From the IMG/VR virus record IMGVR_UViG_3300020205_003196, positions 1 through 35,403 of that record: a stretch of DNA of 35,403 nt. One strand, 5' to 3'. The notes beneath the pieces are model-generated. The model ran no database searches. It was not told where the DNA came from and saw only the letters and a list, made by a program, of their open reading frames with translations. This document shows positions 15,150 through 30,569 of this stretch, piece after piece (within the stretch, counting starts at the first letter, position 1; each line of letters starts with the position of its first letter). Source of the stretch: a virus. The position numbers and the translations under genes are program-made.

Positions 15150-15209
15150 ATATATTTTATCACGCAAATACATGTAAATATGTAAACACCACCGTTGAAA
15201 GGTAATATT

Positions 15210-15896
15210 ATGTTTGGTACAATGTACACAGGAAATCTTGAATATCGAGATGCTAGCGAAATAAATTCTGCCATGGGCAGAGTTTATGGACATATGAGTT
15301 TGGCAGTGCTCACCTCTATGATTATCAGTTGGTTTGTGGGCTCTAGTCCGGATCTGCTACAGTTCTTTTTTACCGGTATCCTAAAATGGATTGTAATTTT
15401 TGCTCCATTAGTGGCAATATTTGCCATTGGATTCTTGATGGAAAAAGTAGGCAAGTCAGGAGCGCAGATCATGCTGCACGGATTTGCCGCATTGATGGGA
15501 TTGAGTTTTGCAACAATCTTTGCCATTTACACCATGGGATCGATTGTAAACGCATTTATGGGAGCGGCAGTGCTGTTTGGAGTGCTCAGTGGATATGGAT
15601 ATTTTACCAAACGCAGTTTAGACAGTGTTGGCAAATGGATGTTTGTGGGGTTGATTGCCATCGTAATCGCCAGTATAATAAATGTATTCATAGGTAGTAG
15701 TGTGGGGCAAATGGTAATTAGTGCATTGGCAATTGTTATATTTCTTGGATTAACTGCATATGACACACAAAAGATTCGTGAAGAATTGAGTTTCGACACC
15801 AATGGTGTAGCTGAAGTTCGGGGCGCATTAACGTTATACCTTGACTTTATTAATATTTTTATTCACTTGTTACAACTGTTTGGCGGTAGGAAATAA
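15210..15896 (+). CDS. Bax inhibitor-1 / YccA-family membrane protein
   Basis: The 228-residue protein has about seven hydrophobic helices. It has the family N-terminus (MGRVYGHMSLAVLTSMIISW), the central GVLSGYGYFTKRSLDSVGKWM and the terminal LTAYDTQKIREE signature with the acidic residues of the BI-1 channel. Bacterial relatives include YccA, a modulator of the FtsH membrane protease, and YbhL/YetJ-type calcium-leak channels. I chose ATG 15210 because GAAAGG lies upstream; an in-frame TTG at 15195 is less likely. Protection of phage proteins from FtsH or ion-flux control are inferences. Confidence 0.9.
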   Translation: MFGTMYTGNLEYRDASEINSAMGRVYGHMSLAVLTSMIISWFVGSSPDLLQFFFTGILKWIVIFAPLVAIFAIGFLMEKVGKSGAQIMLHGFAALMGLSFATIFAIYTMGSIVNAFMGAAVLFGVLSGYGYFTKRSLDSVGKWMFVGLIAIVIASIINVFIGSSVGQMVISALAIVIFLGLTAYDTQKIREELSFDTNGVAEVRGALTLYLDFINIFIHLLQLFGGRK

Positions 15897-16473: not shown

Positions 16474-17976
16474 ATGATATTTGGTTTTAGCATTTTGACC
16501 ACAGCTCTGCTATTGAGCTTGGTAGCTGCATATTATTCAGTAGCCGGGCTTACCGCCATATTCTCCGCGGCTGCAATACCCGTGATAATCATGGGCGGCA
16601 GTTTAGAACTAGGCAAGATTGCGGCCACAGTATGGTTGCATAATAACTGGCGGCGTGCCGGGATTATGTTTAAACTATATCTAATACCGGCCATAGCATT
16701 TCTCATGGTGCTTACCAGCATGGGTATCTTTGGATATCTAAGCAAAGCACATTCAGACCAAAGTTTAGTTTCGGGTGACGTACAAAGTAGGATAGCAATC
16801 TATGATGAAAAAATCAAAACAGCACGAGAAAATATTGAAGCCAACCGCCGGCAACTCAAACAAATGGATGAGGCAGTTGACCAAGTCATGGGCCGCAGTA
16901 CAGATGAAAAAGGTGCCGACAAAGCAGTCAGCGTACGGAAAAATCAGTCCCGTGATCGCGTTGCTTTGGCCAAAGACATTGAAGCCAACCAGAAGCTTGT
17001 TGCTAAACTTAATGACGAAGCCGCACCTATTCGCGCAGAAGTACGCAAGGTAGAAGCCGATGTAGGCCCAATCAAATACATTGCCGCATTGGTATATGGC
17101 GATAATCCTGATACCAACATCTTAGAACGTGCGGTACGATTGGTAATCATAATGATTGTGTTGGTGTTTGATCCACTGGCACTGACATTGATATTGGCTG
17201 CCAACAAACAATTTGAATGGGTGAGAAAAGGCAAGGGTGGCTGGGCTCATGACGATCCCCAGGCATATCCGCCCGACGATAGTCCACTGTCCCCTGAACA
17301 GATTGCACAGATAAAAGAAACAGCCAAAGAAGATTTACCAACAGGTCCGGTTATTACCAAGACCTGGATGTCGGGTGATATTCCTAAACCCTATCCCATG
17401 ACAGAGCCCGAGGTAGAACAAGTGATAACAGAGTTTGATCGAGCTAGACATGCATACCTAGACAAACCATTTGTTCATTTTGAGAATTTAAAACCAATGG
17501 TGGCTCCCACGGAACCAGAGCCAATCACAGCATCAGTAATAGATTATGACCCAATGGATCCCAATGATTCAGTGGATATGAAAGCGGCCAAGAGTGTGTG
17601 GAAAGACCTGCATCCTAACGATACATTGAAGATGGAACGTATTAAATTGGCCAAAGGATTGATTACAGAATTGCCGTGGGTAAAACTTATTAAGAATGTA
17701 CCTACTTCGGGATTTGGTAATGTATTTCCAATGGCCGCTGGCAAAGGTGATACCTATATTCGTATAGACAGTTTACCAAATCAATTGTATAAGTTTAATG
17801 GCAACGAGTGGATCGAGGTTGACACACATACAACTAACAGTTATACTTACGATATAGCATATCTTGATTATCTCATTGAAAAACTAAGTACCGGTGAGTA
17901 CGATCCTGAATTGCTGAGTGCAAACGAGCAAGAACAAGTGACACAACGTTTACAAGACAAACCAACCGATACATGA
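16474..17976 (+). CDS. Inner-membrane protein with periplasmic or cytoplasmic coiled coil
   Basis: The 500-residue protein has about three hydrophobic helices at residues 3-90 (with GGSLELGKIAATVWLHNNW) and a charged coiled coil at about 98-195 (YDEKIKTARENIEANRRQLK and QKLVAKLND). Another hydrophobic helix follows at about 222-245 and then a long soluble tail. The tail has FPMAAGKGDTYIRIDSLPNQ near residue 420, which looks like a small domain of its own. I recall similar proteins in marine T4-like phages without a function. There is no ribosome-binding site; it starts five bases after the previous stop and overlaps clpX by four bases. Confidence 0.8.
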   Translation: MIFGFSILTTALLLSLVAAYYSVAGLTAIFSAAAIPVIIMGGSLELGKIAATVWLHNNWRRAGIMFKLYLIPAIAFLMVLTSMGIFGYLSKAHSDQSLVSGDVQSRIAIYDEKIKTARENIEANRRQLKQMDEAVDQVMGRSTDEKGADKAVSVRKNQSRDRVALAKDIEANQKLVAKLNDEAAPIRAEVRKVEADVGPIKYIAALVYGDNPDTNILERAVRLVIIMIVLVFDPLALTLILAANKQFEWVRKGKGGWAHDDPQAYPPDDSPLSPEQIAQIKETAKEDLPTGPVITKTWMSGDIPKPYPMTEPEVEQVITEFDRARHAYLDKPFVHFENLKPMVAPTEPEPITASVIDYDPMDPNDSVDMKAAKSVWKDLHPNDTLKMERIKLAKGLITELPWVKLIKNVPTSGFGNVFPMAAGKGDTYIRIDSLPNQLYKFNGNEWIEVDTHTTNSYTYDIAYLDYLIEKLSTGEYDPELLSANEQEQVTQRLQDKPTDT

Positions 17977-19166
17977 ACACATCTAAAAATCCCGATACCT
18001 GTAGTTTCTGTGGCAAACACAAAGACACAGTAACTAAACTTATTGTAGGTGAAGATGTAGCAATATGCAATGAATGCGTGGACCTATGCCAAAATTTGTT
18101 AGTAGATCAAATTGATCCTAAACCAGTTGACCACCCAAATCTCAACCCCAAACAAATACGACAACACCTTGACAAATACGTAATAGGCCAAGATCATGCT
18201 AAAATCATGCTCAGTGTGGCTATTGCCAATCATTACAAACGAATCAGGAACACAGATACCGGCGCCGAAATTGAAAAGGCCAATATTCTCATGCTTGGTC
18301 CCACCGGCTCGGGCAAAACATTGTTAGCACGTACTGTGGCACGTTATTTAGATGTTCCATTTGTGATTGCAGATGCAACTAGTTTAACTGAAGCAGGATA
18401 TGTGGGAGATGATGTTGAAAGTTTAATCAGTAGACTGTTTGCCGCAGCCGGCAACAATGTTGAAAAAACACAACAAGGTATTATATTTGTAGATGAAATT
18501 GATAAAATTACTAGGAAAAGCGAAGGCTCCAGTATCACCCGTGATGTATCGGGGGAAGGGGTACAACAAGCCTTGCTCAAGTTAGTGGAAGGTACCAAAT
18601 GTCGTATTACGGCCACAGGTGGTCGAAAACATCCGTCGGGTGATATGATTGAGATTGATACTACTAACATTTTGTTTATTGCTGGCGGTGCATTTGTTGG
18701 ATTAGAAAACATTGTAAAAAGTCGTATACAAGGTACTAGCATGGGATTTAATGCCGAAATATCAAATACACACAATGAAAAATTACATCTAGATCAAACC
18801 ACCCCCGACGATCTTGTGCGGTACGGATTAATTCCAGAATTTGTCGGACGCTTTCCTTCTTGGGTGGCTCTTAAAGAGCTTGACAAGAAAGATCTCATAC
18901 GTATTCTTAAAGAAGTCAAACACAATTATATAAGTCAATATCAATGGTTGTTCAAGCAGGATAATGTAGAATTGGCATTTACCTCAGACAGTTTGGAGTT
19001 GATTGCCGAACGGACAATTAAAAATAAAACAGGGGCTCGTGGGTTGCATTCAGAACTGGAGCGGGTGTTACTGCCACATATGTACAATCTAGCACAATAT
19101 CGCACAGATGGAATTGATCATGTGGATATATCAACTGAGGAGGTGAACATTCCAAAAGAATTATAA
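17973..19166 (+). CDS. clpX: ATP-dependent unfoldase ClpX
   Basis: ClpX unfolds tagged proteins and feeds them to ClpP. The 397-residue protein is nearly complete against 424 in E. coli. It has zinc-finger Cys10, 13, 32 and 35, Walker A GPTGSGKT (109-116), pore loop GYVG (142-145), Walker B IIFVDE (170-175), RKH loop (218-220) and sensor-2 GAR (354-356). The ClpP-docking tripeptide is MGF (257-259) rather than IGF, so docking to a host ClpP is probably kept. No clpP is in this window. Its ATG overlaps the preceding stop without a ribosome-binding site, so translation is coupled to the membrane-protein gene. Confidence 0.96.
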
Positions 19167-21141: not shown

Positions 21142-21594
21142 ATGACAAAAACTTTACACCTTCGTTCCCTTGATATTCCAGGAATTCACAAATTTGGTAT
21201 CGGTTTTGATAACATGTTTGATGAACTGTTGCGAGTGAATGCTCAACAATCAAACAACAATTATCCACCGTACAACATTGTACAAGTCAATGACGACGAG
21301 TTTATGATTAGTATTGCTGTTGCAGGATTTGGTCACGATAATCTAACAGTTACCAAGGAAAAAAACTTCTTGATAATTGAAGGCAAAGAGTATGAATCCA
21401 CTGGTAAAAAAATTGAGCCAAACTATCTACACAAAGGTATCAGCAACAGAGATTTCCGTAGAGAATTCCAATTGGCGGATCATGTGGAAATTAATGGAGC
21501 ACACCTTGAACTTGGTATATTGAGCGTTCACTTAAAACGTGAAGTTCCTGAAGAAGCCAAACCAAAGACCATTGCTATCACTCACACTTTGTGA
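21142..21594 (+). CDS. Small heat-shock protein Hsp20
   Basis: The 150-residue protein has the IbpA-like alpha-crystallin domain: YPPYNIVQVNDDEFMISIAV at about residues 41-60, NLTVTKEKNFLIIEGKE, and the ISNRDFRREFQLADHVEI strand block, with a short C-terminal tail (KPKTIAITHTL) that holds an IxI-like motif. Hsp20 holds unfolding proteins for DnaK. Hsp20 genes are common in T4-like marine phages, but here the gene sits in an operon with dnaK (gap 11 bases, AAGGAG site), so the pair could form a working holdase-refoldase set. Confidence 0.94.
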   Translation: MTKTLHLRSLDIPGIHKFGIGFDNMFDELLRVNAQQSNNNYPPYNIVQVNDDEFMISIAVAGFGHDNLTVTKEKNFLIIEGKEYESTGKKIEPNYLHKGISNRDFRREFQLADHVEINGAHLELGILSVHLKREVPEEAKPKTIAITHTL

Positions 21595-21608
21595 TATAAT
21601 AGTAAATA

Positions 21609-21634
21609 CAGTGGCAGCAATAGTGCTGCCACTG
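21609..21634 (+). other. Perfect 11-bp hairpin between hsp20 and clpS
   Basis: Arms CAGTGGCAGCA and TGCTGCCACTG enclose the loop ATAG. It starts 15 bases after the hsp20 stop and lies just before the clpS ribosome-binding site, without a T-run. A TATAAT at 21592-21600 precedes it. It could be an attenuator, a processing site or a stability hairpin. Confidence 0.65.
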
Positions 21635-21649
21635 CAATAGGAAATAACC

Positions 21650-21958
21650 ATGTCACAATCAGAAACACAAACAAGAATTAAACCAACTAATCAGATCAAG
21701 GAACCTCCTATGTTCAGGGTGATTTATCTAAATGATAACACAACCTCTGTGGAATTTGTAATGGAAAGTTTGGTAGAATTTTTTAACTACACAGCCGACA
21801 CAGCTGAGGCAATTACAAATGCCATACACGAGTCTGGATCTGCTGTGGTTGCTGTGCTGCCTTATGAAATTGCCGAACAAAAAGGAATTGAAGTCACAGT
21901 CCGAGCTCGCAATAGCAGTTATCCATTGCAAATCAAACTTGAGCCTGATCAGGTCTAG
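21650..21958 (+). CDS. clpS: N-degron adaptor ClpS
   Basis: ClpS binds proteins with bulky hydrophobic N-terminal residues and hands them to ClpAP. The 102-residue protein has a flexible N-terminal extension of about 20 residues (needed for delivery in E. coli), then EPPMFRVIYLND. The ligands for the N-terminal amine are kept: Asn28, Asp29 and His60 (E. coli N34, D35, H66). Two changes stand out: D36 is Asn30 and the gatekeeper M40 is Val34. The acidic/Lys patch of the ClpA interface is partly present (EIAEQKG). No clpA is in the window. The stop overlaps the convergent gene by four bases. Confidence 0.92.
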   Translation: MSQSETQTRIKPTNQIKEPPMFRVIYLNDNTTSVEFVMESLVEFFNYTADTAEAITNAIHESGSAVVAVLPYEIAEQKGIEVTVRARNSSYPLQIKLEPDQV

Positions 21959-22743
21959 ATATCTATAACAACCCGACGTGGGTAGTACACATGCTGCCCG
22001 TGTGGTGTGTTACCACGCCCGCGGCCATGACTCAAATATCTAATTCCATTTCGATTCTGATCAACTGAATTATGATAATGCCCAAAACACCAGGTATGTA
22101 TTTTGCGCTCAGTGTCCACATCAAATACCTGTCGCATGTATCTGTTGCCCATGGTATTAAATAGCCAAGAGTTTACCAGTGATAAATCGTGTGAAATCAA
22201 CACAGGATCGGGCACAGTATGAGTTACCATTATTATTTTTTTAACATCCTGGTGTGTTTGTAATTTTTTCACTGCACTTACCATGTACATGGCATCTGTG
22301 TTGGCCATTTTGTAAATTGATTTCACTGCATCTGTTGTGATACCAAACTTTTCTTGATACATTTTAGCACAGTGAGTGGAATCTAACGACAAATCAAAAT
22401 CAAATCCCCACCATCCATTGGTTCCTAATATGGCCACGCCATTGGCCACTACCACATTGTCTTGAAGATATACCACATTTGAAATACAGTTGATTCTGCT
22501 GACTAGGTCCGAATAACTTTGTCCTAAATTATTTAAATAATTGGCATGTTCATCATTGCCGTCTACATAAAACACAGCTTGATAGTTTTTGCCCAGATGA
22601 GTCAATACTTCCACCAGGTCGTTGCGATCACATGCAATATCGCCCACCACTATGGCCACTGGACTGGTAGCAATTCCAGTCCAGTCAAATTTAGGCCAAG
22701 TGTTCACATGTAAATCGCTTATGAGATCAAATGCAAATTCCAT
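21955..22743 (-). CDS. Calcineurin-like metallophosphatase
   Basis: The 262-residue protein has metal-site motifs in order: SDLH (Asp10, His12), GDIA (Asp35), GNDEH (Asn63), VTHTVP and GHYH. The third motif is normally GNH(E/D); here the catalytic His position is Asp64, with a His two residues later, so activity or substrate may be altered. Phage relatives hydrolyse phosphate mono- or diesters, but the substrate cannot be told from sequence. It is transcribed toward clpS and divergently from the gene at 22831. It may belong to the sugar-related block downstream. Confidence 0.85.
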   Translation of the reverse strand: MEFAFDLISDLHVNTWPKFDWTGIATSPVAIVVGDIACDRNDLVEVLTHLGKNYQAVFYVDGNDEHANYLNNLGQSYSDLVSRINCISNVVYLQDNVVVANGVAILGTNGWWGFDFDLSLDSTHCAKMYQEKFGITTDAVKSIYKMANTDAMYMVSAVKKLQTHQDVKKIIMVTHTVPDPVLISHDLSLVNSWLFNTMGNRYMRQVFDVDTERKIHTWCFGHYHNSVDQNRNGIRYLSHGRGRGNTPHGQHVYYPRRVVIDI

Positions 22744-29573: not shown

Positions 29574-30569
29574 TTAAAATAGTCCCAATCGCTTCCAATC
29601 TGCACGAATCTTGGATTTAACTGCCGCAGGCAATGCAACATAATCTAAATCGTCAGCCATTTTGTCACCGTTGGCAAAACACCAATCAAAAAATGTCAAT
29701 GCACTTTTTACATCTGCTGGTTTGTCAGATTTTAATGGCACCAATATAAATGTAGCACCGCTGATTGGCCAGGTCTCGCGGCCTGCTTGATTGGTCAGAA
29801 TCTGATAGTATGATCGGTTCCAATCCGCACCATCGGCAGCAGCCTTAAAGGAATCCTCTGAGGGTGTTACCCAAGTTCCGGCAGCATTTTGAACATTAAC
29901 CCAATTCATTTTGGTTTGTTTTACATAGGCAAATTCAACATATCCAATGGAGCCTGGCAGTTGTCTAACCATAGCAGCCACTCCTTCGTTGCCCTTGCCA
30001 CCAGCACCAGCACGCCAGTTAACTGCGGTACCTTCACCAATGGTATCTTTAAACTCTCGACTGATTTTGCTTAGATAGTTGGTCCATATAAATGTTGTAC
30101 CCGATCCATCTGCACGGCGAACCACTGTGATTGCTTGGTCAGCCAACGCTAACTTGGGGTTCAATGCAGTAATAGCAGGATCATTCCATTTGGTAATCTT
30201 GCCCAAGTAAATATCAGCAAGAACCATGCCTGTCAATCTCATTGATCCAGGATCAATGCCCTTGACATTAATAACTGGAACCACTCCACCTATCACTGCA
30301 GGAAATTGAAACAAGCCCAATGCTGCCAATCGGTCGTCAGGCAGCGGCATATCACTGGCACCAAATGCCACAGTTCGAGATTCAATTTGTTTAAGTCCAG
30401 CGCCCGACCCTATGCTTTGATAGTTGACCTGTATACTAGTGGCTTTATTATAGGCTTCGGCCCATTTTGAATACAGTGGAGCAGGGAATGTTGCACCTGC
30501 TCCATTGATGTTCTGTGCTTGTACGGCGAATGTCATGGCCGTTAATAAAATAGCAAGTAGTTTTTTCAC
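29574..30569 (-). CDS. pstS: Phosphate ABC-transporter substrate-binding protein PstS
   Basis: PstS captures phosphate in the periplasm for the PstCAB importer. The 331-residue protein has a signal peptide (cleavage near AVQA-QN) and phosphate-loop motifs INGAGATFPAPLYSKW, IGSGAGLKQI, FGASDMPL, VRRADGSGTTFIW and the late GSIGYVEFAY. It lacks the rest of the pst operon, so it must act with host PstCAB. This is the pattern known for pstS in marine cyanophages, where it raises phosphate uptake during infection. A Pho box precedes it and a terminator follows. GGAGA near the ATG is a good ribosome-binding site. Confidence 0.96.
   Translation of the reverse strand: MKKLLAILLTAMTFAVQAQNINGAGATFPAPLYSKWAEAYNKATSIQVNYQSIGSGAGLKQIESRTVAFGASDMPLPDDRLAALGLFQFPAVIGGVVPVINVKGIDPGSMRLTGMVLADIYLGKITKWNDPAITALNPKLALADQAITVVRRADGSGTTFIWTNYLSKISREFKDTIGEGTAVNWRAGAGGKGNEGVAAMVRQLPGSIGYVEFAYVKQTKMNWVNVQNAAGTWVTPSEDSFKAAADGADWNRSYYQILTNQAGRETWPISGATFILVPLKSDKPADVKSALTFFDWCFANGDKMADDLDYVALPAAVKSKIRADWKRLGLF

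Follow-up and report, generated by a model that had tools for sequence, protein, structure and literature searches.

A phage-encoded ClpS with a fixed Tyr/Thr pocket and a changing gate residue

The viral record analysed here in its whole length (35,403 bases, hereafter the window), from a giant freshwater phage, carries on its plus strand a clpS gene whose product has a valine at the gate position of the N-degron pocket. Citing published work in which trimming of Met40, the gate of E. coli ClpS, admits beta-branched residues such as Ile and Val, the initial annotation proposed that this adaptor may read different N-degrons and could send a new set of host proteins to ClpAP. The locus thus raises the question of whether the valine is the decisive change in this protein, and of which protease the adaptor would serve.

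21650..21958, plus strand: clpS, 102 aa, ATG start, recognised by Pfam ClpS, AF2 model and Foldseek

This open reading frame scored 79.7 bits against PF02617 (E 1.4e-22; cut-off 23) and matched the solved E. coli and Caulobacter ClpS structures in sequence at 1e-13. Its AF2 model (pLDDT 89.7, with low values at residues 1-20) has a flexible N-terminal extension of 20 residues, with PP at its end, followed by the ClpS core. When the model was used in Foldseek, the matches down to rank 38 were ClpS proteins or ClpS domains, with rmsd values of 0.6-1.6 Å to canonical bacterial ClpS crystal structures and TM values to ClpS chains of up to 0.97, normalised by target length, as is proper to the ClpS fold. 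The NCBIfam ClpS equivalog cut-off was missed (best 72.3 bits versus 149), the named models being narrow. Judged by its profile match and its predicted fold, the product is a genuine ClpS, with at most 43% identity to bacterial ClpS.

Residues were compared by alignment: adding 6 to a window position gives the E. coli number, and subtracting 19 from a Caulobacter position gives the window number. Accordingly, N28, D29 and H60 correspond to E. coli N34, D35 and H66, and the equivalences given by the initial annotation for Val34 (Met40) and Asn30 (D36) are correct. The Caulobacter pocket is formed by Ile45, Leu46, Asn47, Asp48, Thr51, Met53, Val56, Met75, Val78, His79 and Leu112 (quoted in PMC12493166); the pocket membership of window residues rests on this published list, not on model geometry. 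The positions of interest are the following.

21725..21727, plus strand: Tyr26 (E. coli L32 / Caulobacter I45), part of the pocket, Tyr throughout the phage clade and in no sequence of the bacterial sample
21737..21739, plus strand: Asn30 (E. coli D36 / Caulobacter D49), a clade-wide Asp-to-Asn change
21749..21751, plus strand: Val34 (GTG; E. coli M40 / Caulobacter M53), gate residue, variable in the clade
21815..21817, plus strand: Thr56 (E. coli M62 / Caulobacter M75), part of the pocket, Thr throughout the phage clade
21866..21883, plus strand: segment E73-K78 (EIAEQK; E. coli E79, K84), with the residues for docking on ClpA, which show no variation in the phage clade; contacts quoted in PMC12493166

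Two scans of IMG/VR, the second based on a profile, returned 576 encoded relatives, far beyond chance, and at least 563 relatives, respectively. The best 80 of each were analysed, giving 81 distinct phage ClpS sequences, a sample thereby biased to relatives with identity of at least 65%. For comparison, 119 distinct bacterial ClpS were collected from 120 Pseudomonadota genomes (112 with ClpS) and six genomes chosen earlier. The ClpS of Acinetobacter 'phage' MD-2021a was excluded, because its argC, clpS and clpA genes look bacterial. In a tree calculated without the gate column, phage and cellular ClpS fall on opposite sides of a branch with 100/100 support. By sequence, the phage clade retains the fold of ClpS together with the Asn34/Asp35/His66 positions and the residues that dock on ClpA, and its N-terminal extension is about 20 residues long.

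With regard to the amine site, N28, D29 and H60 are kept in 81/81 phage ClpS (best 80 per scan), and the initial annotation, which considered the amine-binding residues conserved, named them correctly. The Caulobacter amine contacts, however, are N47, D49 and H79 as quoted in PMC12493166, and since D49 equals E. coli D36, and thus Asn30 of the window, one of three contacts on this numbering has changed from Asp to Asn. This Asn is found in 78 of the 81 distinct phage sequences (best 80 per scan), while bacterial position 36 is Asp in 118/119 and Asn in 1/119. Should Asp49 be the key contact in the phage clade, the change may weaken amine binding. In the M. smegmatis ClpS crystallised with PheAla and TrpSer, position 36 is Pro, so Asp is not universally required there. 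A conserved amine site is therefore probable, but not certain.

Two further departures from bacterial ClpS lie in the pocket. Among the 81 distinct phage sequences (best 80 per scan), position 26 is Tyr and position 56 is Thr without exception, also in relatives with a Met gate. At the equivalent bacterial position 32 we counted 82 Leu, 28 Met, 9 Ile and no Tyr (n=119), and at position 62, 114 Met, 4 Thr and 1 Val (n=119). Both residues are in the pocket list of PMC12493166 and had been overlooked by the initial annotation. Instead of a canonical hydrophobic pocket with a Met gate, the window ClpS thus has Tyr26, Val34 and Thr56 in place of L32, M40 and M62.

On the tree of 80 phage ClpS, no change was found at columns 26, 28, 29, 32, 37, 56, 60, 73, 78 and 93, one change at column 59 and eleven at column 27, while the gate changed at least 18 times. 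Ten columns without change, against at least 18 changes at the gate, indicate strong constraint, and therefore a phage ClpS that is in use. This bears on a non-degradative role, in which the protein would bind no N-degrons and simply occupy ClpA, blocking its function in host or phage. The ClpA-docking residues E73/K78 are indeed kept in 81/81 distinct sequences (best 80 per scan), despite a drifting gate and the loss of D36. Nevertheless, the N34, D35, T38, V43, H66 and L99 positions and the Tyr/Thr pair are unchanged in 80 sequences, and since a dead pocket would decay, we regard such a decoy as improbable. Window residue 57 (E. coli 63), next to Thr56, is mostly Leu or Met in bacteria and shows about 30 changes in phages, forming a second freed site.

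The gate itself behaves very differently in the two groups. In phages it is Met in 47-48 sequences, Tyr in 17, Val in 7, Ile in 3, Leu and Ala in 2 each, and Ser and Gln in 1 each (80-81 distinct; best 80 per scan); in bacteria it is Met in 111, Arg in 7 and Lys in 1 (n=119 distinct). Gate entropy was zero in the first bacterial set once three outliers were set aside (two Lys or Arg gates and one misaligned sequence). In phages the gate acts like a surface position, since 11 of the 84 columns of the core show as many changes. A phage pair with 94% identity carries Ala (GCA) in one member and Ile (ATA) in the other, two base changes within one codon. Such a moving gate is compatible either with relaxed constraint or with diversifying selection.

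These data allow the original proposal, namely that the Val gate alone admits N-terminal Ile and Val and routes host proteins to the ClpAP of the host, to be weighed. Besides the exclusion of beta-branched residues by Met40 in E. coli (PMC12493166), it can draw on the Caulobacter ClpS M53A structures that have been solved (3g1b, 3g3p). Moreover, a valine gate, whose presence in the host protein would have spoken against it, occurs in 0/119 bacterial ClpS, a sample that need not include the host. The gate is indeed not Met; as the decisive change, however, Val34 fares less well, because relatives at about 70% identity carry Met, Tyr or Leu, the gate wanders throughout the clade, and the pocket is also lined by the invariant Tyr26 and Thr56. 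The published gate mutants were made in an otherwise canonical pocket, so their behaviour does not simply transfer to one in which these two residues differ, and with both fixed and the gate variable, predicting Ile/Val binding from those mutants is unsafe. Taken together with the phage proteases described below, owing to which the target could be other than the host protease, the proposal appears unlikely. Reading Ile/Val acceptance off Val34 is a weak inference; some kind of altered specificity is, from these comparisons, more plausible than the Ile/Val prediction itself.

A different possibility is that specificity has remained canonical, with Tyr26 filling the space freed by Thr56, so that the protein would read Phe, Tyr, Trp and Leu as host ClpS does and act through dosage, a raised level of ClpS in infected cells diverting ClpA from ssrA-tagged or other substrates. 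ClpS is known to lower the affinity of ClpA for ssrA-tagged substrates (PMC12493166). Furthermore, Met is still the commonest phage gate (47/80; best 80 per scan), the four bacterial ClpS with Thr62 all have a Met gate (4/119), and Pro36 in peptide-bound M. smegmatis ClpS indicates that D36N can be tolerated. The absence of Tyr32 from 119 bacterial ClpS, and a gate free to change in phages and not in bacteria, argue in the opposite direction, and we place this explanation somewhat below an even chance. That the protein prefers other N-terminal residues than host ClpS does, with gate variants tuning the preference between phages, comes close to an even chance; it would follow from a pocket rebuilt by fixed L32Y and M62T and nearly fixed D36N, in which the gate keeps changing.

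To address which protease the adaptor would serve, 20 large records that encode this ClpS, 96-364 kb in length, were searched. ClpS is present as one copy in each of them and ClpX also in 20/20; ClpP was found in 18/20, with two loci in 17 of these 18, and a Clp_N protein (ClpA) in 12/20, among them each of the six that reach 300 kb. The large records that lack ClpA are shorter and may be fragments, and the window contig of 35,403 bases contains neither clpA nor clpP. Judged by the Gp23-type capsid present in 6 of 10 large records, these are T4-like phages. No Leu/Phe-tRNA transferase was detected in the 20 records; thus the phage supplies no such enzyme to make N-degrons.

About 755 residues long, the Clp_N protein can be aligned with almost the whole of E. 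coli ClpA (4-720; 1ksf, E 4.8e-173) and scores 793 bits against TIGR02639 (ClpA; E 2.5e-238), below the equivalog cut-off of 993; its best profile model and its best solved structure are both ClpA. It has both Walker A motifs and the IGF loop, and, in the alignment with E. coli ClpA, it keeps the positions E23, E28, T81 and R86. Glu23, Glu28, Thr81 and Arg86 of ClpA are residues which we take to be contacted by ClpS. These contacts are partly quoted in PMC12493166. Contact residues E79/K84 on one side and a partner ClpA with matching residues on the other suggest that the phage protein is a ClpA adaptor. The first phage ClpP is near the bacterial type, with GQAASMGS, MIHQP and an acidic motif, and the second is divergent, with Ser, His and Asp motifs kept (by eye). 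Several of these records, of T4-like jumbo phages, contain a full Clp set of ClpA, ClpX, ClpS and two ClpP genes, one canonical and one divergent, a few kilobases apart.

For other jumbo phages, Iyer and colleagues assumed host ClpAP (PMC7824862). The statement that this ClpS sends host proteins to ClpAP, taken as the host's, is in our view incomplete, as large relatives encode their own ClpX, ClpP and ClpA and ClpS may serve phage ClpAP besides or instead of that of the host. All together, the window protein is probably a phage-encoded ClpS adaptor of a large clade of T4-like jumbo phages. It would bind proteins exposing a particular N-terminal residue, dock on the N-domain of ClpA, phage or host, and deliver the bound proteins to ClpP. 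A broader proposal, which we consider doubtful, is that this clade runs a self-contained ClpS-ClpA-ClpP N-degron protease whose ClpS reads a non-bacterial set of N-terminal residues; conflict or a change of substrates would then diversify the gate, the other pocket residues being frozen in a phage-specific form.

The interest of the locus lies in the fixed Tyr/Thr pocket and moving gate within a phage-encoded Clp set, rather than in the valine. A rebuilt pocket with a changed choice of N-terminal residues would represent a natural, virus-owned N-degron code. It would also offer, in one scaffold, a ready-made series of gates (M, Y, V, I, L, A, S and Q) for learning how ClpS chooses residues, of use as well for N-terminal-residue binders in protein sequencing. 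Moreover, the presence of ClpA, ClpX and ClpP suggests that giant phages may take over protein turnover in the host and not only redirect it. With the matching protease encoded by related phages, and a reworked pocket not seen in the bacterial ClpS sampled, these viruses may run their own protein-disposal line.

Compared with known systems, the window ClpS shares with the E. coli and Caulobacter proteins (PF02617) the fold, N34/D35/H66, T38, V43, L99, E79/K84 and the flexible N-terminal extension; at 37-43% identity, it differs from them by L/I32 to Tyr, M62 to Thr, D36 to Asn and a non-Met, variable gate. A phage Clp set is not a new kind of system, as ClpX, ClpA, ClpB, ClpP-like proteins and ClpS were already reported in Atu_ph07 (PMC6102473). 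Cultured jumbo phages (Atu_ph07, PA5oct, Phosso and the RaK2/CBB group) also encode ClpS, with at most 41% identity to that of the window. In PA5oct and Phosso, Hsp20 is encoded beside or near ClpS as in the window, but the Met gate and Met62 are kept, and in ClpS of the RaK2/CBB group, unlike the window protein, the N-terminal extension is long and the motif has decayed. In RaK2/CBB/BF/Munch-type jumbo phages this longer ClpS lies beside IF-3 and its NDD motif has decayed (DSPKT in CBB); these proteins are perhaps not N-degron readers.

Natural non-Met gates are known from Leptospira ClpS1, which has Tyr (PMC12493166) and, like the window protein, Asn at the Caulobacter D49 position, from Arabidopsis ClpS1, with Arg, and from second Pseudomonadota ClpS copies, also with Arg. 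These are single paralogues, and none of those read combines Tyr32 and Thr62, whereas in the phage clade one gate position changes repeatedly.

The surroundings of clpS were compared with 155 related loci.

17973..19166, plus strand: clpX, above the NCBIfam ClpX equivalog cut-off, with zinc finger and, by eye, an MGF ClpP-binding-like loop
19253..21130, plus strand: dnaK (Hsp70), between clpX and hsp20, by profile match and synteny
21142..21594, plus strand: hsp20, small heat-shock protein (Pfam HSP20 1.1e-15), directly upstream of clpS
21572..21600, plus strand: sigma70-like promoter TTGCTA-17-TATAAT, its second hexamer preceded by TG and its -35 lying within the hsp20 3' end
21607..21636, plus strand: hairpin between hsp20 and clpS, with compensatory changes in relatives; the minus strand scans as a weak terminator
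21955..22743, minus strand: convergent gene without Pfam match, with phosphoesterase-like motifs by eye

Upstream of clpS, hsp20 is found in 155/155 loci (in most by about 500 bases, in some with a further gene interposed) and clpX in 152/155; the convergent gene lies downstream in 152/155. By comparison, dnaK sits between clpX and hsp20 in only 17/155 loci and the window, pointing to recent acquisition or repeated loss. The putative promoter scores 10/12 against the sigma70 consensus, about as many matches being expected by chance in the region. All 78 distinct hsp20-clpS intergenic sequences fold below -8 kcal/mol, a weak test because some contain an inserted gene. In 62 of the 69 gaps with TAAATA, this element is followed after 0-2 bases by a perfectly paired stem of 8-11 pairs, with compensatory changes at most inner stem positions across relatives and no match in Rfam. 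A generic promoter-plus-hairpin element was considered and rejected, since throughout the window a TAAATA-hairpin with a perfect long stem occurs only at the hsp20-clpS site. Our guess is that the hairpin stabilises the 5' end of the clpS transcript.

Elsewhere in the window, a small cytochrome c (964-1263) is an auxiliary gene with no counterpart in the related loci read. Another auxiliary gene, for the phosphate-binding PstS (29574-30569; NCBIfam equivalog), recurs in 23 related loci; host assignment through this protein was dropped, its best match, at 60% in a set of 143 genomes from a single bacterial class, being too weak. Finally, a Bax1-I family membrane protein (15195-15896), which matches the FtsH modulator YccA weakly, is encoded close to the Clp genes and present in 37/155 loci, and is another possible modulator of a host protease.
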